IMG/VR virus record: IMGVR_UViG_3300037507_002489 | Span: 1 to 64,000 of that record | Reading direction: 5' to 3' (one strand) | Source: a virus | DNA: 64,000 nucleotides | Shown: piece after piece, positions 10,034 to 53,865 of the stretch | How positions within the stretch are numbered: position 1 is the first letter of the stretch | How the letters are laid out: each line of letters begins with the position of its first letter | Translations under genes and position numbers: made by a program | Notes under the pieces: generated by a model | Told to the model about the DNA's origin: nothing | Seen by the model: the letters and a program-made list of their open reading frames with translations, nothing else | The model's database searches: none

Positions 10034-10561
10034 TTATTGAGCATTGTGCAAAATTGTTCCTTTTAGAACCCAACTTACACTTATACGTCTAGGTTTAGTT
10101 GACGCAATCGGTCTATGACTTAGATTAGAATCAAAAAATATGCCTGTGTTTTCTTTGTGGAAACATTTTTGATGTTCAAATTCAGTCCCGCCATTGCTAT
10201 CATCTACATAATAAAGTAAACTATATGTTCCAGGTAATTTATAAGAGTTATCATTATGCCAGGCAGTGACCTGACCAGCAGTGTAAAAATTTATCATACA
10301 GTGATTTAAAAAATCAATTTTAAACCATTCTTTATTTTGATCTAACCATCGATCAAGAACATAGGTCAATGATTCTACTCTGTTCCAATTATTGATGTTT
10401 TGTTGTTTATTAAATGTTAACTTACCAAATGCCGCCTTTTCTAAATCGATTTCACCGGTTGCATAACTTGGAAAATTCCAATCTAACATCGGATTTAATA
10501 CTTGTTCTTTAACTATAGAATGCAACCATTCGTCTGTGAATTTGTTATACTGTTTAATCAT
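10034..10561 (-). CDS. 2-oxoglutarate/Fe(II) dioxygenase, prolyl-hydroxylase-like
   Basis: The double-stranded beta-helix signature is complete: His102-x-Asp104 in WHND, distal His149 in LSHR, and Arg158/Arg159 in KPRRIS as candidate 2-oxoglutarate anchor. 'LPGTYSLLYYVDD' and GGTEFEH form the central strands, as in PKHD-type prolyl/lysyl hydroxylases. At 175 residues it is a single catalytic domain. Its substrate is unknown. The gene overlaps the preceding dioxygenase by 4 bp, so it is the last cistron of a minus-strand operon of four (12504 down to 10034). Confidence 0.82.
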   Translation of the reverse strand: MIKQYNKFTDEWLHSIVKEQVLNPMLDWNFPSYATGEIDLEKAAFGKLTFNKQQNINNWNRVESLTYVLDRWLDQNKEWFKIDFLNHCMINFYTAGQVTAWHNDNSYKLPGTYSLLYYVDDSNGGTEFEHQKCFHKENTGIFFDSNLSHRPIASTKPRRISVSWVLKGTILHNAQ

Positions 10562-11254: not shown

Positions 11255-11776
11255 TTATCTAAATTTTAAATCAAAGCCAATTATAGTTTTGATTGTGTGT
11301 GAATTATTAGGCAACGTGTAATGTAAAATATTACTCGGTACAATAATCATTAATCCTTCACTGGCTTCAATATTCTTTATCTCTGTTTGATCAGTTATGG
11401 GATTATTTACAGGATTAATAAAATAAGTTGGACTGTGTAAGGTTTCATCGTAATCTAAATAGATGATTCCCGAATATCCCACCCCCGAGTGATTATGAGG
11501 GATATGAAATTCATCTTTTGCATAAGACACTGTCCATACGTCGCCTATATCTAATGATTCTACTTTAATTTCATTAGAAAACAGAGCCAGTTCATTCTTA
11601 AAAATTTCAACAAACTCAGACTGATAGCTGTTATTACCTCGATCGCTTGCAAACAATTGACCGGGCTTTCTTACCAATGCCGCTGCATTAATTTTTTTTG
11701 AAATTTTTTCTTTCTTTGATTCCCAATCATTGATATAATAACTATAAAATTTTGTTTCAAACAATGTACTTTGCAC
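11255..11776 (-). CDS. 2-oxoglutarate/Fe(II) dioxygenase-like protein
   Basis: Compact 173-residue domain. The candidate metal ligands are His94-x-His96 (IPHNH) before SGVGYSGIIYLDYD, and His152 in ILHYTLP. Lys163 (HTIKTIIGFDL) stands where an Arg usually anchors 2-oxoglutarate, as in Lys-using prolyl 4-hydroxylases. The N-terminus lacks the IPxFP entry of its neighbours, so it forms a separate branch. It overlaps the upstream gene by one base and is 10 bp from the next. Substrate unknown. Confidence 0.7.
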   Translation of the reverse strand: MQSTLFETKFYSYYINDWESKKEKISKKINAAALVRKPGQLFASDRGNNSYQSEFVEIFKNELALFSNEIKVESLDIGDVWTVSYAKDEFHIPHNHSGVGYSGIIYLDYDETLHSPTYFINPVNNPITDQTEIKNIEASEGLMIIVPSNILHYTLPNNSHTIKTIIGFDLKFR

Positions 11777-12504
11777 TATTGATTTCCCTGAAAATATGAT
11801 TTGATCTTAGCGTAATTTCTTACGAAAGTATTGTTCATCAATATATAATTTATCGTTAGTTCTTCTTTGCTAATATCAGTTCTGATTTCTAATTCCAAGG
11901 AATTCTTAGGAACTGCAATTAATTGTGCAAGGGGGGTGCCAGCTTTGATCACGGTTTCCTCATTGAGGTTGTGCCAAAATACCGGAACATTTATGTTATT
12001 GATTCCGTAGTCACTTGAATAAATCCCACTTAGAGCAGTGAATCGATTTTCATCGGCGTAGAATACAGAAGTTTGTATTAAAAGATAATCACTGGGAATT
12101 TTACAGCACCAGCCAGTGATAAATTTTATCACAGATCGGCTAGAATGATTCGGCCAGTTTTGAAATGTTTTAAACAAACTGTCTTGATGTTCCTCAATCG
12201 CCGGACTGCCGTTGATTTTTTCTTGATCAATAGGAGTTCTCCACTGTATTTTATCCTGTGACGAATCTGCTTTGACGTAGATATCTTGCCATGCTCGCAC
12301 TACAAACCCTTGACTCTGTAAGATGTTGATTCCGGGACAATTAGAAATGCTGTGTATGGCATGCCCGAGATTATTTTTTTGATTTTTAAATTCTCTAGCT
12401 GCTTCCTGTTTCCAATTATGCACGATTTTATCTGCAGATAAAATCGGCATTGTCTTATCGATGCCAGGTATAGTGGGATAAAATATAATCTTTTGTGCAG
12501 TCAT
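11776..12504 (-). CDS. Unknown protein, paralogue of the gene at 18688-19491
   Basis: The 242-residue protein is not assigned to a family with confidence. It aligns along its length with the 267-residue protein 6 kb away: matching N-terminus (KIIFYPTI vs KFPYFFTR), a Cys-centred segment (SNCPGINIL vs KHCNAIIEY), the WxxD/WFEM strand, and C-terminal 'KAGTPLAQLIAVP' vs 'LPLTPLAIMHPM'. The PLAQ strand recalls beta-barrels such as dUTPase, but no catalytic motif is present. It is first in the operon leading to three dioxygenases. Its paralogue is also co-operonic with dioxygenases, so a shared pathway is likely. Confidence 0.6.
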   Translation of the reverse strand: MTAQKIIFYPTIPGIDKTMPILSADKIVHNWKQEAAREFKNQKNNLGHAIHSISNCPGINILQSQGFVVRAWQDIYVKADSSQDKIQWRTPIDQEKINGSPAIEEHQDSLFKTFQNWPNHSSRSVIKFITGWCCKIPSDYLLIQTSVFYADENRFTALSGIYSSDYGINNINVPVFWHNLNEETVIKAGTPLAQLIAVPKNSLELEIRTDISKEELTINYILMNNTFVRNYAKIKSYFQGNQ

Positions 12505-22150: not shown

Positions 22151-23053
22151 TTACGATATAATAAAACTTTGGGCACCAGTTGATGTAAACTGATGAAGTT
22201 TATATCCGGCGGGTGTTGTGACTGTACCACCAGTGGCGCTAACGGAACCAGTGACCAAGGTGTGAACTACCAACCAGGTGTCTGTGCTGCGTTTTCTACA
22301 AAATAATTGTTCGTTAGCATTCATAGCCCCAGTACCAGTATTTCCTGTGAGTGTGACTCCAGCACCTGCTGTGAGAGCTACACTACCCGTGTTGATTCTA
22401 GCTATGCTGATCACTGTGCCTATGGGATACGCCACACTGCTATTGGGAGGTATGGTTATAGTTGCTGAGCTGGTGTTGTTCATGGTAACAACTTTTCCAG
22501 CGTCTTCTAATACACAGGTATAACTGCTTGTCTGCACATTTTCTACTTGGAGACTTGTAGCCAGTCCTGCTACTCTTAACTCAGTGACACTTAATGTTCC
22601 TGTGCTGGGCTGGAAAGTCAATTTTGAAGAACTACGTCTCACTGAGGTGATAGTAGTATCTGTAGTAGATGTAGTCAACGTCACAAAGTGAGATGCAGCA
22701 TCAGAGGTATTATCCGTTAAAGATAATCCGGCAGTGGCCCAACTTAACACACCTGATCCATTAGTTGATAACAACTGTGTGTTTGTGCCGTCTGTACCGG
22801 GCAGTGTCCAGGTTACATTTGATGAGACTGTAGCTGGGCCTTGAAACGCCACCCAGTTTGAACTATCTGAATCTGCAAATCGAAGATCCCCCTGAGCCTG
22901 TAGCTGTGCATCACCAGCTATTTTAAATATGCCAGTGCCGGCAGGATCTATGGTAATGTCCAGATCGTCAGCAGCAGTTAGGGTGGTGTTATCTATATTA
23001 AAACCACCAACTCCTGAGCCGCCTGCTGTTCCTGCTGTATGTTTTCTACCCAT
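22151..23053 (-). CDS. Fibre-like protein ending at the adhesin junction motif
   Basis: 300 residues of Ser/Thr/Gly-rich beta repeats (DITIDPAGTGIFKIAG, FADSDSSNWVAF, SWATAGLSL). The C-terminus ends GGTVTTPAGYKLHQFTST then IIS and a stop. That is the same junction (GGYxIHxFT) that precedes the glycine-rich domain in the downstream gene, so this protein looks like a fibre shaft whose tip domain is absent and is encoded separately. Shine-Dalgarno AGGAGAAT precedes the ATG. Confidence 0.68.
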   Translation of the reverse strand: MGRKHTAGTAGGSGVGGFNIDNTTLTAADDLDITIDPAGTGIFKIAGDAQLQAQGDLRFADSDSSNWVAFQGPATVSSNVTWTLPGTDGTNTQLLSTNGSGVLSWATAGLSLTDNTSDAASHFVTLTTSTTDTTITSVRRSSSKLTFQPSTGTLSVTELRVAGLATSLQVENVQTSSYTCVLEDAGKVVTMNNTSSATITIPPNSSVAYPIGTVISIARINTGSVALTAGAGVTLTGNTGTGAMNANEQLFCRKRSTDTWLVVHTLVTGSVSATGGTVTTPAGYKLHQFTSTGAQSFIIS

Positions 23054-23066
23054 GGTATTCTCCTAG

Positions 23067-23387
23067 TTAGGCCGTTGCAGTTTCAATGCCATAGACCACT
23101 GCATTGACACCAGTAGCACTGGAACGAACTACCAGTAATTTTGCTGCATCCATAACAATACCGGTGCGTTCTAACACACCTTTAGGAGATAGACTCACGT
23201 CATATTCCAGCCATTCAGCGTCAGTGGGTGACGCAGAACTTGCTAGTGCTATTCGTATCAGTGCTGCACTTGCACCACGATTTACCACACTGACTGTTGC
23301 CACTGTGAATGTTGTAGCAGGCACTGTATACAGTGTTGTCAGCGTGACTGCTGATAAATCTGCGGTTCCTAATCTTCCTGTTGCCAT
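23067..23387 (-). CDS. Small beta-rich virion-type protein
   Basis: 106 residues (GRLGTADLSAVTLTTLYTVP...), all predicted beta with a sandwich pattern of alternating hydrophobics and no Cys. Similar in size and layout to the 110-residue product at 37293-37625 (IPLGVRATVIGLNLAN) and the 133-residue one at 40635-41036. Small proteins of this kind sit among appendage genes of cyanophages. No function can be assigned. Confidence 0.62.
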   Translation of the reverse strand: MATGRLGTADLSAVTLTTLYTVPATTFTVATVSVVNRGASAALIRIALASSASPTDAEWLEYDVSLSPKGVLERTGIVMDAAKLLVVRSSATGVNAVVYGIETATA

Positions 23388-23410
23388 AATTTATTTCTCC
23401 ATGTATATAT

Positions 23411-26400
23411 TTAGTTCAAAAAGTAGTTGAATGCCAGGGGAACTCCGGTAACTCCGCCTCTGAATTCAAAATTAGCATTTATTTTAATTGGGCCGCCAGT
23501 AGTAGTAGTTATAATGTTAGAACTAATAAACACACTACCTGCTGTGATAGAGTTCACGTTCAAACTTGCACCACCACCTCCAATTTGGCCCGCAATATAA
23601 GCTTTGATTGCTCGCTGTGTGGGCACAATATTATCCGAATCTGCTGTAAAGAATGGATCTGTTGAAAATTCAGTGATTGTAGCTGAACCGCCGCCTAGTG
23701 TTACGTTGCCCAAGTTAAGTTCTTGCAGTCCGCTAATGTTAAATGCATCTGCATTCAGTGTAGCAATACCAGTGCTTTGCTCGATAGCAAACAGATCACC
23801 AACACGGAAGTTACCGTCTTGGTCTGTGGAGGTAAAGAACACTCGACCTCCTCCGTTGTCCACAGCTTCGTTGGCAGGAATAGCAGGTTGATTAGGCGCA
23901 CCGGGATAATTAGTGTCAATGAAACTGCCTGTGCCTATGTCCAAGAAATCGTGTCCAGTTAATCTAACCTGACTGTATCTAATCCTAGTTTCAACACTAA
24001 CTCCGTCTGCCGGAGCTTCTGATCTTGTCAGTTGTGGGCTAATTTGGAAGAATGCTGTGTAAGCACCCTCGTTTTCACCCAAGAATGTGATCACGTTGAC
24101 CAACTTAAAAGTTCTGTCAGGTAGATGACTGAACACCACGTTGGCTCCGGGCACTGGTTGAATGCTGATTCTTCTCAGCGCCACAAACGAACCAGGTTGG
24201 AATAGGTTGGAATAACCATCACCTATGTCTACTTCACCGCTACCTGTGACATAACCCGATCCTCTGTTAACAAAACTAGGATTAGCTAACACACCGCTGC
24301 CGGTTCTCACGGTCACGGGGGATTCAAATGTGTTATTAGGATCAGTGAATGTAATTGTTGGCGCCGAGGCATATCCCGATCCAGGCTCTGTGATATTAAC
24401 CTGGAACAGTTTGTCAGCAGCCACTTTAGCACGACCTCTAGCAGTGGCTCCGGTTCTAATATAAGTGGCCACTGTGCCTGTGCTGCCACCTACACCTACA
24501 AACAGGCCGTAGCGATTTCTATTACCAAAAGTGATTGCTGAGAAACCGCTAGCTGCCGTAGAAGTAGTTCTAGTGGTCCATGTTACTCCGTCTGGCGATG
24601 TTGCTGCTGCTGTAGTTGTGCTCACGGCAAGGAATACTCCCTGACCGTATGTAACTTTGGTCCACGATGCTGTAGCTGGTAATGTGCTAGATGACCAAGT
24701 TATACCGTCTAAACTATAGGCAGCAACAGTGCCGCTGGTGCTCGAAATAGCAACAAATCTGTTGTTACCATAGGCGATACTGTTCCAGTTTGACGAACTC
24801 GGCAATGTGCCTGCAGTCCATGTTCCTGTAACTGTGGTTGATGTGGCATGATTGGTAACATTAGTGCCGCTCTTAATTGCAACAAATCTATTTTTACCGT
24901 AGGCTATGGCTGTGAATCCAGTCGTGGTCAATGTGCCTGTCTGATCCCATGTTTCGCCGTCATTGCTGATTCTCACTGTGGTTACATCGCTGCTGACTGC
25001 CACAAATTTCTGTGCACCGAAGGCCACATCGACCCATACCGCAGAAGTCTGCATGCTGGTTGCTGACCAGGTAATACCGTCACTACTGTATGCTCCGGTA
25101 GTATTTGCACTTGTGCCTGCTACTGCTACGAATTTGCTGACCTTGCCCACTGTGGAATTGTCGTCAAACAGACCGGCGGCCATTGCAGACCAGTTCGCTC
25201 CGCTTGGCATCAAGCTAGTTTGTGAAGTCCAATTAACGCCATCTTCTGATGTTGCACCAGCGGTAACTCCATTGCGTAGAGCTACATATCTGCCACCTAT
25301 GCCGTAACCTGAGTGATCAAAATCTAAGATAGCACCTGTGGTAGAATTCACTGCGGTAATAGTAATTATTAAATCGTTGGCAGGAGTTGTGCCGCCTAGA
25401 CTATTACCTAAAATTGTTATGGTTTCTAGTCTGGTATATCCTGTGCCTGCGCTCTGTGTTGATGGTGTATATTTCCATCCATTGCGTATCACGGTGAATG
25501 TGGCTCCTACTCCTGTGCCTGTATATGTGCCTGTGACTGTAGTATACACCGCAGCAGTTTCGCCATATTTCACTGCTGTCCAGGCTCCGCTGGTTGGCAG
25601 AGTGGCAGCTGTGCTGGTGTATCCAGGCGCTGAGAACGTTACTCTAGGTTCAATGATATATGTCGAAGAAGCATCTGGAGATATAATTGCTGTGCCTGCT
25701 ACTAAATGATCAAAACCTGCTGTACCGTCGGATTCTTTGATCAGCCCAGCTACTTTTGTACCTGAATTATATGTGGTGATAATACCAAACTGACCAACAC
25801 CTGCGCCACCTGTGAGCACTATCTTCATGCCTATGTAAGCAGAACTAGATTCGCCGTCTGTGGCAGCTATGGTTACAGAAGTCAATGTTCCACCTTGGGC
25901 AGTGTTGGAGTTTGTGATATAACCAAATCCGCCAAGATTTCCCTCAGCCTCAGGAGCATTAGTGCTGTCGTCAATTAGGTCTAACATTCGAACTTCAAAC
26001 ACAGCGTCATCACGGAATTCATCTGCTTCGACTATAGCTCCGGAGCCGCCGCCGGTGAGTGTATAAGTGACTTCTGTATAGTCAATACCTGCATTTGTGA
26101 ATTCTAATTGCACCAATGCTGATCCGTCAGTGATAACACGATCGATCTCTGCGTCAAATTGCAGTCTATTATCAACTATGGCTGTGCCGGCAGTTTCAGA
26201 GTTGTCAACCCCTTCTGCTACAGAACCAAAATCTCCGTATGAATTGTTGCCGTTTGTTCCGCGGATACGTCCGCCATTTTCAGCCAAATATCCAATGTGA
26301 GCATAGTAAGTAAACACTGAAACAAGTTCAGCACGACCGTTGTTAGTAATCCAAGCACCGATACCATCTGATATTACCTGGGTGAAGTCGTTGCTAACTA

Positions 26401-47631: not shown

Positions 47632-49336
47632 ACTGAACTGGTGCTTCTGGTGCTGCTTCTGCCCCGGCATCTGCGCCTGGCTCTGCGGCAGCTGCCATAT
47701 CTAAAGGTGCTTCTGCTTCTTGAGTTCCAACATCTGCAGCCATGCCTCCTGGTGTTACACCTATGCCTCTCAACTGACTCTGTGCATCGGCAGGTGCTTT
47801 GATATTAGAACCGTTTTCCTCACGCCACAGTTTTTCATTTTCTTTGATCTCATCTTCAGTCATGCCTAAGAATCGTTTCATGGCAAAACGCTTGCTGAGA
47901 TGCGGAATCTGTACCACCTGTGAAAATGTAGCTGCTCTAGCTGTGTCTAATTCACTTTGACGATAAGCAGCAAAATTCTGCGGCTGATTGAATTTAAGTT
48001 CAAACAGTCCACTATCAATGTTTACACCTTGATCATTAAGCCACAGCTTGAATTCAAGATCAAATGTTTCTACTATAATACTCTGTAGACGTTTGCAGTA
48101 TTCGTTAAATCTCAATTCTTGTATGTAAGCTGTGCCTACTTTGCCGTCTGATACAGTGTTGGCTTGCTCGTCGATAGCTGTGGGCAAATAGCTAGCAGGG
48201 ATGCGAAGAGCCCTAAACAGTTTGTTAGTAAAATAACGTAAATCTGTAATTTCGCCAAGATTTGTACCTCCAGGCAATGTTTCTACTTTTGATCCACGAC
48301 CTTCGGCGGTCTGTGGGAAGAAGTAGTCTTCGTTTACACTTAGTGGATTATAACTAGCGTCTATGACATTTGCTCCGCCACCCGTTGATGAAGGAATACG
48401 TCGTTGTTGAATTTCATTTTTAACACGTTCAACAAAGCTCATAGCCATGTGTGCCGGCATATTTCCAACGTCTACATAGAAAATTCGTCTTTCTGGAGCA
48501 CGTTGTATACGATAGATAATAATAGCATCTTCAAGCAATTCTTTCTGCTTGTAGACTTTGAACACTGATTCTAATAGACTATTACCAAAAGGATAGTTAT
48601 TATCTAGTCCTTCTGACAATGAAATATGAATAACATGTTTGGCATCCACTGTTATTTCATTGGTCTGATTACTGAATCTTGTGCCTACTGAACGTGCTGC
48701 ATCACCTGCAAAGCCGCGGGCAAAACCACCACCTGTCTGATATGAACTAGTACCACTTGGAGCTGTGTTTGTGGTATTTTGTGGTGTGGTAGCTATGAAT
48801 TCTTTGAAGTTGAAGTTGATATCACGGATCACATACTGCTCGGGAATCTTGCCTTCTGATTCGTTAACAATTATCTTAGTGACTTTAGAAGCATCCACAA
48901 ACAACCATTTTTTGGTTTCTGGATCACGAATAAAAAAGCAGTCTCCGTATTTGAATGCGTTGCGTAGTATGCGGAAGATTCTGGTTTCAAAGCTGTTCTG
49001 TTTGCACCACTTCTGTAGGCTGTCTTTGAGTATCTTGACTTCAGTGGCAGTGGGCTCACCACGGAAAAATGTATGAAACGGTGTGGCGTTTTCTTTGTCT
49101 TTTTGTGTACAGAATTCTGTGAGTATGTCCAAAGCAGCATTGACTTCCGAGTCCATGTCCATGGTATCATACTGCATGTATCGTTCTACACGATTGGGAC
49201 TACCTGCGTAAACATCTGGTAGATAGCTGGAATAATTAGCACGAGCAGGACCTGGACGGCCGCGACCACTGATTGGACTCATAGAGCCGCTGGTGTTATC
49301 TATGTTAACAGGGGTAAAGTATTTTTTCCAGCTCAT
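47630..49336 (-). CDS. gp20: Portal vertex protein gp20
   Basis: Dodecameric portal that nucleates the prohead and is the DNA channel. The 568-residue protein has YSSYLPDVYAGSPNRVERYMQYDTMDMDSEVNAALDILTEFCTQ in its N-terminal 85 residues, VDASKVTKIIVNE, 'VYKQKELLEDAIIIYRI' followed by RAPERRIFYVDVGNMP, and the LPTAIDEQANTVSDG motif, all gp20-typical. T4 gp20 is 524 residues; the extra is a C-terminal Ala/Pro/Glu-rich tail. The tape-measure gene upstream overlaps it by 4 bp. Confidence 0.93.
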   Translation of the reverse strand: MSWKKYFTPVNIDNTSGSMSPISGRGRPGPARANYSSYLPDVYAGSPNRVERYMQYDTMDMDSEVNAALDILTEFCTQKDKENATPFHTFFRGEPTATEVKILKDSLQKWCKQNSFETRIFRILRNAFKYGDCFFIRDPETKKWLFVDASKVTKIIVNESEGKIPEQYVIRDINFNFKEFIATTPQNTTNTAPSGTSSYQTGGGFARGFAGDAARSVGTRFSNQTNEITVDAKHVIHISLSEGLDNNYPFGNSLLESVFKVYKQKELLEDAIIIYRIQRAPERRIFYVDVGNMPAHMAMSFVERVKNEIQQRRIPSSTGGGANVIDASYNPLSVNEDYFFPQTAEGRGSKVETLPGGTNLGEITDLRYFTNKLFRALRIPASYLPTAIDEQANTVSDGKVGTAYIQELRFNEYCKRLQSIIVETFDLEFKLWLNDQGVNIDSGLFELKFNQPQNFAAYRQSELDTARAATFSQVVQIPHLSKRFAMKRFLGMTEDEIKENEKLWREENGSNIKAPADAQSQLRGIGVTPGGMAADVGTQEAEAPLDMAAAAEPGADAGAEAAPEAPVQ

Positions 49337-52299
49337 GCTTTGTATAGATTCTTGTTAAGGCCTTTTGTAGCCATTACATTTTCATAAGTGTTTGTAGTGG
49401 TCTGCGCCTGCAGTTTTATTAATTGTGCCATCTTAGTATTTAACTCCGCGAGCAGTGTAGAAGGTGATTCTTGAGATTTTTTATCTTGTTCTTGTTTTTC
49501 TTTAGCTGCCGCTTCTTCTTTAGCTTTGGCTTCTGCATCTGTTTTGGCTTTGGCATCTGCTTCTTGTTTTTTCTTTTCGGCATCTGCTTCAAGAGCTTTT
49601 TTGCCTGCGTCAGTTTGTGTGGTAGGTTGAGGTTTAGCTGATGCTGGGACCGCTGGTTTATCTGTAGGAGCTGTGGTAGGTTGAGGTTTAGCTGGTGCTG
49701 GGACTGCCGCTTTTTCCTTAGCTTCTGCATCGGCTTTTTCGTTGCCAGACTTTTCAAAATCTTTAATTATTTGTTGTTTTTCTGCTTCTTTTTGAGCCTT
49801 TTCTGCTTTAGTAAGTGCTTCTAATTTCTTTTCGGCTGCTTCAACTTTTTCAATAGCTGCTTTCTTTTCAGCTGTGGTTTTGGCTTCTGTTAGTTCTTTG
49901 TTAGCAGCATCTTTTTCTTTGCCAATTTCCTGTTTTTTAATTCCAATTTCTACAGCGCCGCCTTGCTTACCGCTGAACTGTTTCAACAGTTCTTCTGGTC
50001 CTGCACTGTAGTCTAATAATTTTTCTTGAGCCTTTACCGCAGCTTCTTTGGCTTCTGCTTCTTTTTTTGCTCCGGTTGTGAGTCTATCATGGGTAAGTTT
50101 CTTTTCTTTAAATTGAGCTTCGTCTTTTTTCAAACCGGTTATCTGTGCTTTAGTCAGTTCGTCATTGTTGGTTTTACGCAATGCTCTTTCTTCAGCTCGA
50201 TCTTTTTTACGCTGATCGGATTGTTCTTTACGTTCGGCATATTCTTTTTCACTGATACCTGCTAGGCCTTTAGTTAATTTTCCTATAGCAAATAAAATTT
50301 GATCCATTAAATCATCAAAGAATGATCCCACATCTTGAATAATATCCATAAATTTTGCCAAGCCATTAATCACGTCCTTGACAACCGTCCACATACCACC
50401 AAGTATAGCTACCACTGCTTTGATAATTGGAGTGAACATAAAATCGAACACTTTAATTAGCACTCCTACAGCCGTACCTAGCACTTGGAACGCTTCTCCT
50501 ACAAATGCACCTACTTTAATTAATATCTCACCGAACCCTCCTGTGCTTTCTGAAACTCCAAATATGTTGCTCATTAATTCTTTCAAAGGTTGAATGATCT
50601 GCATCACGCCATTATACAATCCGTCAAAGGCCAATATAGCTCCCCTAACTAAACCGCCTAGAACCGGAAACACAGCATTCATAATACCGTCAATGAATTC
50701 GACTGTACCGCCTAACCCCGAAGCACCAAATTTTTCACTGAGGTAATCTATCACAGGAGCCAACAATAGACTCATGCCTTCCCATATCTTCATGGCCACC
50801 GACACTACAAGGTTAAAAGCAGGTACCAAATATTTTTCTGCGAGATTAGCCACTGTGCCAAACGCACTGATTAGGTAGTCTAATATGCCACTGTTAGCCA
50901 ACAGCATCTTGAATTTGTTACCTACTTCTGCGATTGCAGCCTGGAACTGCTGCATCTTTTGATTCATCTTGTCTGTTTCAGCAGCTGCTTTTTTCTGTTC
51001 TTCTGTGGCTTCTAGTAGAGAATCTTTGTTTAGAGACTGAGTAGCAGCTAAAGAATTTGTCAATCCTGCTAGCTCAGAATTGGCTGCTGCTGCAGATTTG
51101 ATATTTTGAAGATTTTTTCCACCTTCAGACTTCATCATGTTGTTAAGAGCGTTGCGTTCTTCCAAGGTCACTGCCTCGCCACGCTGCATCTTTTGATTCA
51201 TTCTCTGCAGCATAGCTGCGCTTTGAGGCATCATTGCCATGAGCTTTTGATTTTCTTCTGTGGTTGCTGTGCCAGTGGCCATGATGTCTTTGGCAAAATT
51301 TTTCAGTCCAGTATCTTGCAATCCATCAGTTACCGACATGAAACTGTTTCTTACACCTTCACCTAACCCTTGCATAGATGCTTGAAACTGTGCATCTTTA
51401 GCCATCGCTTCTCTTGATTTTTCTATATCGGCTCTTGATTGTCCAGTGACTTTTGCTAATAGATCCATCTCTTTAAGATAACTTTTTGCACCTTGTGCCA
51501 ATTCTGCATTGGACTTCTTACCTTGCAGACCTTGAGCCTTCATCAATGCACCGTAACTAGCTAATCCTTGATTGATATCTTGTGTGCTGAATCCCAACGC
51601 ATATAATTCACTGCTGGTACTACGTAGTTGTTTTGACACTCGAGCAAAATTACTTGCACCACCTTCTGTAGTGGTTCCAAAAGCAGTCATAGCATTACTG
51701 TTCTTCTGAATCATAGATCCAAACTCTGCCATAGACATACCTGCTTGAGAAGCAGCTGTGGCAAAATTACTAATACTGCCTCCAAATGTAGCACCGGTCT
51801 GTGACACAGCTACAAACGATTTAGTTACGTCATCAGCTGCACCTGCTACTGCACTAAACAGCTTGCCGAATATCGGAATACTGCTGAACATTTGTGCTGC
51901 ACCAGTAGCACTTCCGTCCAATCTTGACAATGATTCTACTGCTCCTGTCACAGTATCACTAAATTTTACATAGGCGCCAGCTGTCTGTATAGCAGTATCT
52001 TTAAGTTTGCCTATGCCAACCACAGCCATACCGGCCATGAATCCTACACCTTTAAAAGATTTACTGACCGCAGCAGAAGCAAGTCCTAACGCACCGCCAC
52101 CTCCTGCTCCGCCGCCACCTGCTCCGCCGCCACCTGCTCTACTACCTGCTGCGCCACCACCTGCTGCGCCACCACCTGCTGCGCCACCACGGCCACCACC
52201 GCTACTCATTACAGCAAGTATGGCCTTGAGCGTGGCTTCGGAAGCTGCATTTTGAGCTTCAACTTGGCCAATTCCTGGGATGTCGATCATTACTGCCAT
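49333..52299 (-). CDS. Tail tape-measure-like protein
   Basis: 988 residues. N-terminus SIGQVEAQ-like start (IDIPGIGQVEAQNAASEATLKAI), then a Gly/Ala/Arg-rich linker (33-70), a long helical region with several hydrophobic stretches (120-290, about 440-680, e.g. 'AFDGLYNGVMQIIQPLKELM'), and a Lys/Glu/Ala-rich coiled region ending in low complexity. This is the size and pattern of tape-measure proteins. Contextual support: the adjacent divergent gene pair has a chaperone-like -1 frame arrangement. Not identical in order to T4, where gp29 lies elsewhere. Confidence 0.7.
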   Translation of the reverse strand: MAVMIDIPGIGQVEAQNAASEATLKAILAVMSSGGGRGGAAGGGAAGGGAAGSRAGGGGAGGGGAGGGGALGLASAAVSKSFKGVGFMAGMAVVGIGKLKDTAIQTAGAYVKFSDTVTGAVESLSRLDGSATGAAQMFSSIPIFGKLFSAVAGAADDVTKSFVAVSQTGATFGGSISNFATAASQAGMSMAEFGSMIQKNSNAMTAFGTTTEGGASNFARVSKQLRSTSSELYALGFSTQDINQGLASYGALMKAQGLQGKKSNAELAQGAKSYLKEMDLLAKVTGQSRADIEKSREAMAKDAQFQASMQGLGEGVRNSFMSVTDGLQDTGLKNFAKDIMATGTATTEENQKLMAMMPQSAAMLQRMNQKMQRGEAVTLEERNALNNMMKSEGGKNLQNIKSAAAANSELAGLTNSLAATQSLNKDSLLEATEEQKKAAAETDKMNQKMQQFQAAIAEVGNKFKMLLANSGILDYLISAFGTVANLAEKYLVPAFNLVVSVAMKIWEGMSLLLAPVIDYLSEKFGASGLGGTVEFIDGIMNAVFPVLGGLVRGAILAFDGLYNGVMQIIQPLKELMSNIFGVSESTGGFGEILIKVGAFVGEAFQVLGTAVGVLIKVFDFMFTPIIKAVVAILGGMWTVVKDVINGLAKFMDIIQDVGSFFDDLMDQILFAIGKLTKGLAGISEKEYAERKEQSDQRKKDRAEERALRKTNNDELTKAQITGLKKDEAQFKEKKLTHDRLTTGAKKEAEAKEAAVKAQEKLLDYSAGPEELLKQFSGKQGGAVEIGIKKQEIGKEKDAANKELTEAKTTAEKKAAIEKVEAAEKKLEALTKAEKAQKEAEKQQIIKDFEKSGNEKADAEAKEKAAVPAPAKPQPTTAPTDKPAVPASAKPQPTTQTDAGKKALEADAEKKKQEADAKAKTDAEAKAKEEAAAKEKQEQDKKSQESPSTLLAELNTKMAQLIKLQAQTTTNTYENVMATKGLNKNLYKA
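49621..49710. repeat. Direct repeat in tape-measure C-terminal linker
   Basis: Two near-identical copies of about 36 bp (49621-49656 and 49675-49710), 54 bp apart, encoding two PAKPQPTT-type linkers. Likely length variation in a flexible linker. Confidence 0.75.
52096..52196. repeat. Tandem repeats in tape-measure N-terminal Gly/Ala linker
   Basis: Several 15-bp units (ccaccacctgctgcg and variants) coding for Gly-Gly-Gly-Ala-Ala/Gly units on the minus strand. Slippage-prone low-complexity coding DNA, not a CRISPR array. Confidence 0.8.
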
Positions 52300-52367: not shown

Positions 52368-53231
52368 ATGGACCAAATTCCTAATTACAGTCAGCCAAAA
52401 AAGAACCCGCTGGCCAGCTTTTATAGACAGCCAAAGATCTATGTCAAACTACCAAGCAAGGGCGAGTTCTATCCACCTGGCAGTTTGGATGTCAGTGCCA
52501 ACGGAGAATATCCTGTTTATGCAATGACTGCCAAAGATGAACTACTGTTTAAAACTCCGGATGCCTTGTTAAGCGGACAAAGCACTGTGGAATTGATCAA
52601 GAGCTGTATTCCAGCGATAACCAATCCCTGGGCTATGCCAAACATAGATCTAGACTTTGCTCTGATAGCCATACGCATTGCTACCTACGGAGACAAGATG
52701 GAAGTGGGGTGTAACTGTCCTCATTGTGAAGCTGAAAACAGCTACGACATCGATCTCACTGCTTGGTTTGGTGTGTTCAACAATTTCCAATACGAAAAAG
52801 ACATACCAATAGATCAACTAACAGTGCATGTGCGTCCGTATACCTACAAAGAAGTCACAAAAACTGCAATCCAAACCATGGAGCAGCAGAGAATATTCCA
52901 GATCATCAATGATGACACCCTCACAGACGAAGTCAAACTAGAAAGATTTGGCGCTAGTTTTATCAAGCTCACAGAACTCACAGTGGATATCATTGCAGAC
53001 TGTATCACTGCCATAGATGCACCAGAAGGCACTGTTACTGATCAAGCTATGATCAAAGAGTTTATTGCAAACTGTGCCAAAGATGTATTTGAAAAAATAC
53101 AGAACCATGTGATACAGATGAAAGACAACATTCAGTTTGAAGCACAAAACGTTACCTGTGGAGAATGTAATAAGTCATTTAGCTTGCCTATTACAATGGA
53201 TCAGGCAAATTTTTTCGCCGTAAAATCTTAA
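52368..53231 (+). CDS. gp26: Baseplate hub assembly protein gp26-like
   Basis: 287 residues. N-terminal NPLASFYRQPKIYVKLPSKGEFYPPGSLD, then EYPVYAMTAKDELLFKTPDALLSG with LDFALIAIRIATYGDKMEV, is the pattern of the gp26/T4 base plate family. A metal site is likely: CNCPHC near residue 122 and CGEC near residue 264 (VTCGECNKS). T4 gp26 is 208 residues. It functions in hub assembly, probably as chaperone rather than structural part. A -1 frame ORF overlaps its end (see frameshift signal). Confidence 0.78.
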   Translation: MDQIPNYSQPKKNPLASFYRQPKIYVKLPSKGEFYPPGSLDVSANGEYPVYAMTAKDELLFKTPDALLSGQSTVELIKSCIPAITNPWAMPNIDLDFALIAIRIATYGDKMEVGCNCPHCEAENSYDIDLTAWFGVFNNFQYEKDIPIDQLTVHVRPYTYKEVTKTAIQTMEQQRIFQIINDDTLTDEVKLERFGASFIKLTELTVDIIADCITAIDAPEGTVTDQAMIKEFIANCAKDVFEKIQNHVIQMKDNIQFEAQNVTCGECNKSFSLPITMDQANFFAVKS

Positions 53232-53257
53232 CGTTATCCTTGCCGGAGATTTTACGG
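53207..53257 (+). promoter_or_regulatory. Candidate programmed -1 ribosomal frameshift signal
   Basis: In the gp26 reading frame the sequence is A AAT TTT TTC: heptamers A AAT TTT (53207-53213) and T TTT TTC (53210-53216) both fit X XXY YYZ. A perfect 10-bp inverted repeat follows, CCGTAAAATC (53218-53227) with GATTTTACGG (53248-53257), loop 20 nt, starting 1-4 nt after the slip site. The frame-0 stop is at 53229, inside the hairpin. A -1 shift enters a 75-codon open frame. Spacing is shorter than the usual 5-8 nt for the downstream heptamer. Confidence 0.72.
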
Positions 53258-53443
53258 GAATCTGATCGCTTAGATAAAGAAGGCAAGGATCTCAAAAAAG
53301 AATGCATGAAACTGTGTTGGTACATGCGTGGACTCAGTTTTGCTGAAGTTATGCACATGAGCTGGGACGAGCGAGAAATAATTGCAGAGATTGTTAAAGA
53401 AAATCTCGAAACTACAAGAAAAACAGGACTACCTTTCTTTTAG
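53240..53443 (+). CDS. -1 frame extension of gp26-like gene, or separate small baseplate-assembly gene
   Basis: As a free-standing gene it would start at TTG 53240 with no Shine-Dalgarno, and the first in-frame ATG falls well inside. The frame is open upstream through 53216, giving RRKILTLSLPEILRES after a slip and a total fusion of about 358 residues. The product is helical and charged (KDLKKECMKLCWYMRGLSF, SWDEREIIAEIVKENLE). It stands in the position of gp51-type hub assembly factors. Translation by frameshift is preferred, not proven. Confidence 0.6.
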   Translation: MPEILRESDRLDKEGKDLKKECMKLCWYMRGLSFAEVMHMSWDEREIIAEIVKENLETTRKTGLPFF

Positions 53444-53865
53444 AGCGTGTTTCTATAAGACTTTAGAGCAAACAAGTCTTGACTATCAAGAGGTCTGCCT
53501 CGCAGCACTTTGTCAACGGTAGCACCTAATTCTTTATCACTGATATCTCCACGGTAAGTTCTTAATTTTTGTAGACTTGCTGTGTCCAACGACTTGCCGG
53601 ACATGGCTTGATCAATCAGGGTCTTAAGTTCTGTAGTGTCAGCGGGAGCTGCATTGGATTTGGTTTTAGATTTTTCAGTGCCGGATGGTTCAAACCATCT
53701 AGACGGAGTTAATAGCTTGTCCATCTTGTCTGCACCTTTGTCATACTGTAGTTTAGCGTTGGTGCCATCAAGCCATTTACTAGGACTTAACACTTTGTCC
53801 ATCTTAGACTTGCCTTTTTCGTAGGCCACTGGTCCAACTTCAACCACAATGTCACGTATTTTCAT
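53440..53865 (-). CDS. Candidate virion-internal protein with paired repeats
   Basis: 141 residues. Two internal duplications are visible: YEKGKSKMDKVLSPSKW / YDKGADKMDKLLTPSRW (residues about 14-60), and KSLDTASLQKLRTYRGD / RPLDSQDLFALKSYRN near the C-terminus. The N-terminus MKIRDIVVEVGP resembles internal phage proteins cut by gp21 after [LIV]xE. It overlaps the upstream gene by 4 bp. Function not known. Confidence 0.6.
   Translation of the reverse strand: MKIRDIVVEVGPVAYEKGKSKMDKVLSPSKWLDGTNAKLQYDKGADKMDKLLTPSRWFEPSGTEKSKTKSNAAPADTTELKTLIDQAMSGKSLDTASLQKLRTYRGDISDKELGATVDKVLRGRPLDSQDLFALKSYRNTL

Follow-up and report, generated by a model that had tools for sequence, protein, structure and literature searches.

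The gp26-like gene of the viral DNA analyzed here (IMG/VR record IMGVR_UViG_3300037507_002489, positions 1 to 64,000, hereafter the window) carries near its end a run of six thymines, beyond which a further reading frame stands open in the -1 register. This arrangement raises the question of whether a single gene specifies two proteins, namely, a short form which ends at the frame-0 stop codon and a long form which is produced by programmed -1 ribosomal frameshifting, as a preliminary description of the sequence had proposed by comparison with the lambda G/GT genes. The alignment of related phages which that description had suggested as a check revealed conservation of the heptamer, the -1 open reading frame (ORF), and the first downstream stem, and programmed frameshifting is accordingly retained as the best reading of the locus, which very probably represents a T4-type tail assembly chaperone gene with a short form and a frameshifted long form.

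The gp26-like gene and its slip site

The frame-0 ORF (positions 52368 to 53231, plus strand) encodes a 287-amino-acid protein, the short form (TAC-N), which belongs to the gp26/gp51 family, matching PF12322 with 69.3 bits (curated cut-off, 24.5) and phrog_150 with an E value of 1.3e-21. PF12322 is present as a single copy in three related records (G001 to G003), which are possibly fragments. The predicted structure of the short form (mean pLDDT, 71; pTM, 0.58) was best matched in BFVD by a T4-like baseplate hub assembly protein (best E value, 3.5e-20). Searches for experimentally determined relatives linked no solved structure to it, with the gp26 profile yielding only five weak matches among PDB sequences (E value of 0.28 or worse), while Foldseek returned no PDB match at an E value of ≤0.001 and VIA-align none at a Z score of ≥8. 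Proteins of approximately 500 to 550 amino acids from Erwinia phage Special G and Ralstonia phages RSF1 and RP12, encountered in BFVD, resemble the gp26 model along a portion of their length and possibly represent larger relatives in other phages.

The final codons of this ORF (GCA AAT TTT TTC GCC GTA AAA TCT TAA) harbor two overlapping slippery heptamers, A_AAT_TTT (positions 53207 to 53213) and T_TTT_TTC (positions 53210 to 53216), both of which, as previously noted, lie in the canonical X_XXY_YYZ phase of the gene and the latter of which is the widely conserved slip site. The frame-0 stop codon, TAA, which ends the short form, follows at positions 53229 to 53231. Beyond the slip, the -1 frame comprises 75 open codons (positions 53216 to 53440) and a stop codon (positions 53441 to 53443), the length that had been read previously, and this extension (TAC-C; positions 53216 to 53443) should occur solely when fused to the short form. 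The fusion peptide, ...QANFFRRKILT..., is identical whichever heptamer slips, and the long product would comprise 358 amino acids (283 + 75). The -1 ORF overlaps a convergent ORF (positions 53440 to 53865) tail to tail by 4 nucleotides (nt) (positions 53440 to 53443).

At a single locus, a heptamer of this type is unremarkable by itself. Six of the 86 stop-to-stop frames of at least 100 codons on both strands of the window, spurious frames included, contain one in their last 60 nt, and three, the gp26-like frame among them, combine a heptamer with a -1 frame which is open for more than 200 nt past the stop. Within the 52 window genes, the slip site being excluded, Phe-Phe pairs are spelled T TTT TTC in 1 of 32 cases and T TTT TTT in 4 of 32, and any such heptamer occurs at 53 of 19828 codon junctions. 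The gp26-like signal nevertheless lies well above chance because the slip site is conserved and is accompanied by RNA structure, and a chance heptamer was rejected in view of its conservation across homologous loci. One further gene pair of the window, on the minus strand between positions 11255 and 12504, carries a GGGAAAT heptamer (positions 11782 to 11788) 3 nt ahead of the stop codon of the upstream gene and a -1 frame which is open for 521 nt; its downstream gene has its own GTG start, and the pair is probably an ordinary overlap. Several ORFs of 170 to 270 amino acids between positions 10034 and 20754 resemble 2-oxoglutarate-dependent oxygenases in a motif, as judged by eye.

The preliminary description had held that a nonconserved heptamer would speak against frameshifting; an in-frame slippery heptamer was instead found ahead of the stop codon in 130 of 131 untruncated homologous loci (121 of 121 in a first set and 9 of 10 in added records), counts which are not independent given that the loci are related and some are near-identical. 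The first set derives from 124 loci, from which L017, L028, and L158, truncated before the site, were dropped. It comprises 26 window-clade loci (close IMG/VR relatives, with 13 distinct sequences over the site), seven jumbo phages (PA5oct, Phosso, Atu_ph07, RaK2, PBECO4, XaC1, and SCTP-2), six T4-like phages (P-SSM2, S-PM2, HTVC008M, KVP40, phiM12, and phiW-14), 80 cyanophage-like contigs (the best 80 of 570, and thus a sample of close relatives), and two others. Single proteins were used as queries in the locus scans, the alignments A1 and A2 being too diverse, and the gp26 homologue of PA5oct retrieved three loci. Within this set, the heptamer reads TTTTTTC in 119 loci and TTTTTTT in 2, with an open -1 frame which reaches the contig end in three of the 121 (L105, L130, and L150).

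The ten further phage records yielded TTTTTTC in eight cases and TTTTTTT in one (XacN1), the slip site being missing from the last (LR756508). These ten, together with seven of the first set, represent the 17 records which were read among the 60 listed matches of a tblastn survey that found 63 phage records; among those 60 listed matches, the lowest identity of a named homologue to the window protein is 24%. T4 and CP81 were also read and stand outside the 131 loci because each carries two genes. The distant gp26 homologue of LR756508.1 (L168) possesses neither the slip site nor a long -1 frame. Among the loci read, the upstream heptamer, AAATTTT, is confined to the lineage of the window, being present in all 26 untruncated window-clade loci, in none of the 95 other loci of the first set, and in none of the ten further records.

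RNA structure downstream of the slip site

A perfect 10-bp inverted repeat, which includes the frame-0 stop and begins 1 to 4 nt past the heptamers, had been described at this locus. The repeat is indeed perfect and its spacing is as described, but it extends to 11 bp, and the stop codon forms the first part of its loop rather than lying within an arm. Its arms (stem 1) occupy positions 53218 to 53228 and 53247 to 53257 and are separated by an 18-nt loop, with pairing commencing 1 nt past TTTTTTC and 4 nt past AAATTTT, while the inner 9 bp, which are always paired, begin 3 nt and 6 nt past these heptamers, respectively. The usual spacing between a slip site and a stem is 5 to 9 nt, and stem 1 lies closer than this to TTTTTTC. 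A second perfect inverted repeat of 9 bp (stem 2) has its 5′ arm within the loop of stem 1 (positions 53236 to 53244) and its 3′ arm at positions 53282 to 53290; judging from this complementarity, the two stems can form an H-type pseudoknot spanning positions 53218 to 53290, which the preliminary description had overlooked.

The simple fold is more stable than shuffled sequences (z score, -2.57; 1 of 200 shuffles as good), and the inner 9 bp of stem 1 are paired in all 13 distinct window-clade sequences, 4 of which exhibit an A-U to G-C replacement in which both sides of one pair have changed. The covariation score of stem 1 (0.091) is lower than that of a control slid by +2 (0.105), whereas the proportion of paired cells is 90.9% for stem 1 versus 44.8% for the same control. 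Stem 2 is uninterrupted, with 7 to 10 bp, in 9 of the 13 distinct sequences, a mismatch being present in L016, L022, L024, and L027, and its 3′ arm is positioned one base earlier in L023, L026, and L027. In the nine sequences which share the other register, both bases have been replaced in two of its nine pairs, in a single sequence for each pair.

When sequences were compared singly with synonymous recodings of the 3′ arm, stem 1 was significant (p <0.05) in all 13, compared with 4 of 13 for stem 2. Stem 2 draws stronger support from arm-swap tests across eight lineages, which preserve the letters of the arms but not the relatedness of the lineages and which gave a mean of -13.9 kcal/mol for stem 2 arms with their own partners versus -10.4 kcal/mol for swapped arms, with 2 of 40320 permutations as good; the corresponding figure for stem 1 was 288 of 40320. 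Stem 1 is well supported, while stem 2 is predicted to be a conserved pairing mainly on the grounds of covariation.

The fold of the 49 nt starting 1 nt past the slip site was also assessed against synonymous recodings of the -1 frame (p <0.05). None of 200 recodings was as good in the case of the window type, and significance was attained for 9 of 17 representatives (the window type, L026, L027, PA5oct, Atu_ph07, XaC1, P-SSM2, S-PM2, and phiM12) and for 44 of 45 distinct cyanophage-like loci (among the best 80 of 570). The same test was not significant for the other 8 of the 17 (Phosso, RaK2, PBECO4, SCTP-2, HTVC008M, KVP40, phiW-14, and L156). Of 47 distinct cyanophage-like sequences (among the best 80 of 570), 44 carry a Shine-Dalgarno (SD)-like motif in the 25 nt leading up to the slip site, a count which is uncorrected for the conserved Glu-Gly codons that spell the motif; the dnaX frameshift site of Escherichia coli also possesses an upstream SD-like motif. 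Across lineages, the slip site is therefore constant, whereas its likely stimulators differ, to judge from the outcomes of the fold test and from the upstream SD-like motifs. A role of the stem as a terminator was rejected upon reading, as it lies inside conserved coding sequence and is not followed by a T run.

These observations also bear on the proposal that RNA polymerase, rather than the ribosome, slips on the six-T run, adding a base to some of the mRNA such that ordinary translation generates the long form. Such slippage would result in nearly identical proteins, and a T run of at least 6 is present in 130 of the 131 loci (at least 7 in HTVC008M, phiM12, and XacN1). Six T residues are short for polymerase slippage, however, and what has been conserved is a heptamer in a fixed phase, in most cases with C as its last base, with RNA pairing beyond the T run in many lineages and, in the cyanophage-like sequences, the upstream SD-like motif, subject to the Glu-Gly reservation given above. 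Polymerase slippage is consequently considered improbable.

Coding evidence for the extension

Under ribosomal frameshifting, the extension is a protein-coding domain, and its substitution pattern bears the signature of one: the median dN/dS was 0.087 in the -1 frame, as against 1.54 and 1.31 for the two remaining frames, the comparison value for 70 upstream gp26 codons being 0.137. These values, obtained from 11 window-clade representatives with 25 of 55 pairs usable (dS being saturated or ≤0.1 in the remainder), are rough, as many dS values exceed 1, but the contrast between frames is plain, and purifying selection acts on the extension solely in its -1 reading. When modeled alone, it is predicted to adopt four helices (mean pLDDT, 87). 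The extension by itself had no match in Pfam or PHROGs, and its model retrieved nothing from BFVD at an E value of ≤0.001, the best match (4.8e-3) being to an uncharacterized phage protein.

Alternatively, the extension would be a separate small protein, translated from its own start codon or by reinitiation past the frame-0 stop; it is annotated as an individual ORF in several phages, e.g., P-SSM2 (gp51), KVP40, Phosso, and PBECO4. Furthermore, an ATG is located just past the stop, at the same place, in all 80 cyanophage-like loci (the best 80 of 570), from which a separate extra product may be made. The preliminary description had stated that the -1 ORF lacks an ATG or SD sequence of its own, and neither an ATG near the junction nor an SD-like motif was found. 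The sole ATG, GTG, or TTG codon in the first 30 codons past the slip (examined in L002, whose sequence does not differ from that of the window over this region) is the TTG at position 53240; it has no SD-like motif, is missing from 5 of the 13 distinct window-clade sequences, and as a start would forfeit the conserved FFR with which the extension begins.

Across 27 representatives, seven (L016, L022, L023, L025, L027, PA5oct, and RaK2) contain no ATG, GTG, or TTG within the first 30 post-slip codons, and only four start candidates have an SD-like motif ahead of them (two from phiW-14 and one each from L024 and KVP40). Homologues with a separate start and ribosome-binding site had been named as potential counterevidence to frameshifting; no start is conserved in the window clade. 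T4 gp51, moreover, is a single protein which holds both parts, and independent translation of the extension is regarded as highly improbable. A sequencing error or decayed gene was rejected because all 26 untruncated window-clade loci keep the frame open and because of the dN/dS value of 0.087.

Relationship to T4 genes 26 and 51 and a proposed mechanism

Both gp26 and gp51 of T4 match PF12322 and phrog_150, with gp51 additionally matching phrog_634 across residues 147 to 246. Among 18 records, exactly one PF12322 gene is present in 15, all of which carry the slip site, while two are present in T4, two adjacent genes in CP81 (as three HMM pieces), and none in SCTP-2, which was found by tblastn in spite of having no HMM match. 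The preliminary description had considered frameshifting not to be standard for T4-type gp26/gp51 genes, a view which is not upheld: all six T4-like phages, which lie outside T4's own group (S-PM2, P-SSM2, HTVC008M, KVP40, phiM12, and phiW-14), have a single gp26 gene at whose end phrog_634 matches in the -1 frame, the matches of S-PM2 and phiM12 spanning one and two TAA codons, respectively. By the same profile, the extension was undetected in 10 jumbo-phage or IMG/VR records; a marginal phrog_634 match elsewhere in Atu_ph07 (E value, 0.028; two stops) was taken as noise.

In profile comparisons, the T4 gp51 tail matched the -1 extension of the T4-like phages (hhalign, 2.7e-6; probability, 88), and the short parts of the jumbo/window and T4-like groups matched one another (6.9e-14). 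The jumbo/window extension matched the T4-like extension weakly (probability, 38) and the T4 gp51 tail without significance (probability, 1.4). Since these latter matches are weak or not significant, the window extension is presumed to be the equivalent of the gp51 tail mainly on the basis of its position and the shared FFR start; it occupies the same position as in the T4-like phages and is of similar size.

The window resembles T4 in its PF12322 short part and in the presumed existence of a short and a long form and differs from it in that T4 carries two divergent genes, gene 26 lacking a terminal slip site, whereas the window has one gene with a probable frameshift. It shares with the TAC-N/TAC-NC genes of T4-like phages a single gene with a T-run slip site in the same place and a -1 extension, though the window combines the tandem AAATTTT/TTTTTTC site with a pseudoknot, whereas the cyanophage-like loci have a hairpin and an upstream SD-like motif. 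In the jumbo-phage annotations consulted, what comes after gp26 is either a small hypothetical ORF of its own or no such ORF, and the KVP40 record already remarks that its small ORF resembles the C terminus of T4 gp51. In CP81 (L058/L060; NC_042112.1, approximately positions 22972 to 24200), the two PF12322 genes are neighbors with a -1-frame overlap, one being short (235-codon frame) and the second (224-codon frame) bearing a gp51-like tail matched by phrog_634; CP81 would appear to be another phage, besides T4, in which the short and the long chaperone have a gene each.

According to a 2016 review, G-T frameshifting is broadly conserved among long-tailed phages, with T4 as the exception (PMC5009743). 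Later articles, each citing Vladimirov, Gautam and Davidson 2022, report that some T4-like phages instead have one short and one long fused gene (PRFect, PMC10885494) and that T-run slip sites occur in the TAC-N genes of T4-like phages (the Adele paper, PMC12846349). Going by these articles, production of a short and a long chaperone by frameshifting in T4-like phages has already been published, and the window is a member of the kind described. The abstract of the 2022 work by Vladimirov, Gautam and Davidson reportedly names T4 genes 26 and 51. In a full-text literature search, no title or abstract dealt with a pseudoknot at this gene or with chaperone frameshifting in jumbo phages; the pseudoknot, the tandem slip site of the window lineage, and the jumbo-phage survey may be new. 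A T4 review tables gp26 and gp51 as hub assembly chaperones and also gives genetic support for gp26 as a hub part (PMC3004832). Hub membership is something that a chaperone need not have, and it counts against the chaperone reading.

In lambda, the chaperone gene precedes the tape measure gene on the same strand. The order in the window is different: the gene divergent to the gp26-like gene (positions 49333 to 52299, minus strand; 988 amino acids) probably encodes the tape measure protein, the expected client of the chaperone, as the preliminary description had supposed. Its product matches phrog_5448 (tail length tape measure) weakly, with an E value of 8.8e-4, and nothing in Pfam. A long divergent gene, annotated as structural or hypothetical, occupies the same place in PA5oct, Phosso, RaK2, PBECO4, XaC1, and SCTP-2, that of RaK2 being noted in its record as similar to a tape measure; none is found at this place in Atu_ph07 or in Vibrio phage 2.275.O, the latter having an upstream gene which runs in the same direction. 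The PA5oct record carries an ESI-MS/MS note on the portal and the divergent structural protein and none on the gp26 homologue, which is only a hint that the chaperone may be missing from the virion.

Because the probable tape measure gene is divergent, the window gene is not assigned to the lambda type, although by analogy it would work like lambda G/GT. Lambda produces a short chaperone, gpG, and a rare -1 fusion, gpGT, which act on the tape measure protein (PMC5009743), and it employs the slip site G_GGA_AAG (PMC7618472) as opposed to AAATTTT/TTTTTTC in the window. We infer that frameshifting occurs at this locus, that it does so at a set ratio, and that its products bind the tape measure and tube proteins. 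Most ribosomes would terminate at position 53231 and yield the 287-amino-acid, gp26-like short form, while a minority would pause at the pseudoknot and, at AAT-TTT and/or TTT-TTC (positions 53207 to 53216), shift backward by a single base. These ribosomes would produce the 358-amino-acid long form, whose last 75 residues are predicted to constitute a helical C-terminal domain (TAC-C), the presumed equivalent of the gp51 tail. By analogy with lambda G/GT, both forms, present at a fixed ratio, would coat the divergently encoded tape measure protein and recruit tail tube subunits to it.

We lean slightly toward the view that jumbo phages, cyanophages, and KVP40 have all retained one old T-run heptamer whose stimulator was exchanged by lineage, being a pseudoknot with a tandem slip site in the window lineage, a hairpin with an SD-like motif in cyanophage-like loci, and nothing obvious in some others, and that T4 and CP81, which carry separate genes, have abandoned frameshifting. 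That T4 relatives have one frameshifted gene whereas T4 has two genes of this family fits the way in which the T4 exception was subsequently resolved in print and extends that resolution to jumbo phages. The pseudoknot would represent a compact signal for frameshifting of which natural compensatory variants exist, and the locus offers a means of asking what determines the short-to-long ratio and why frameshifting was abandoned in some lineages.
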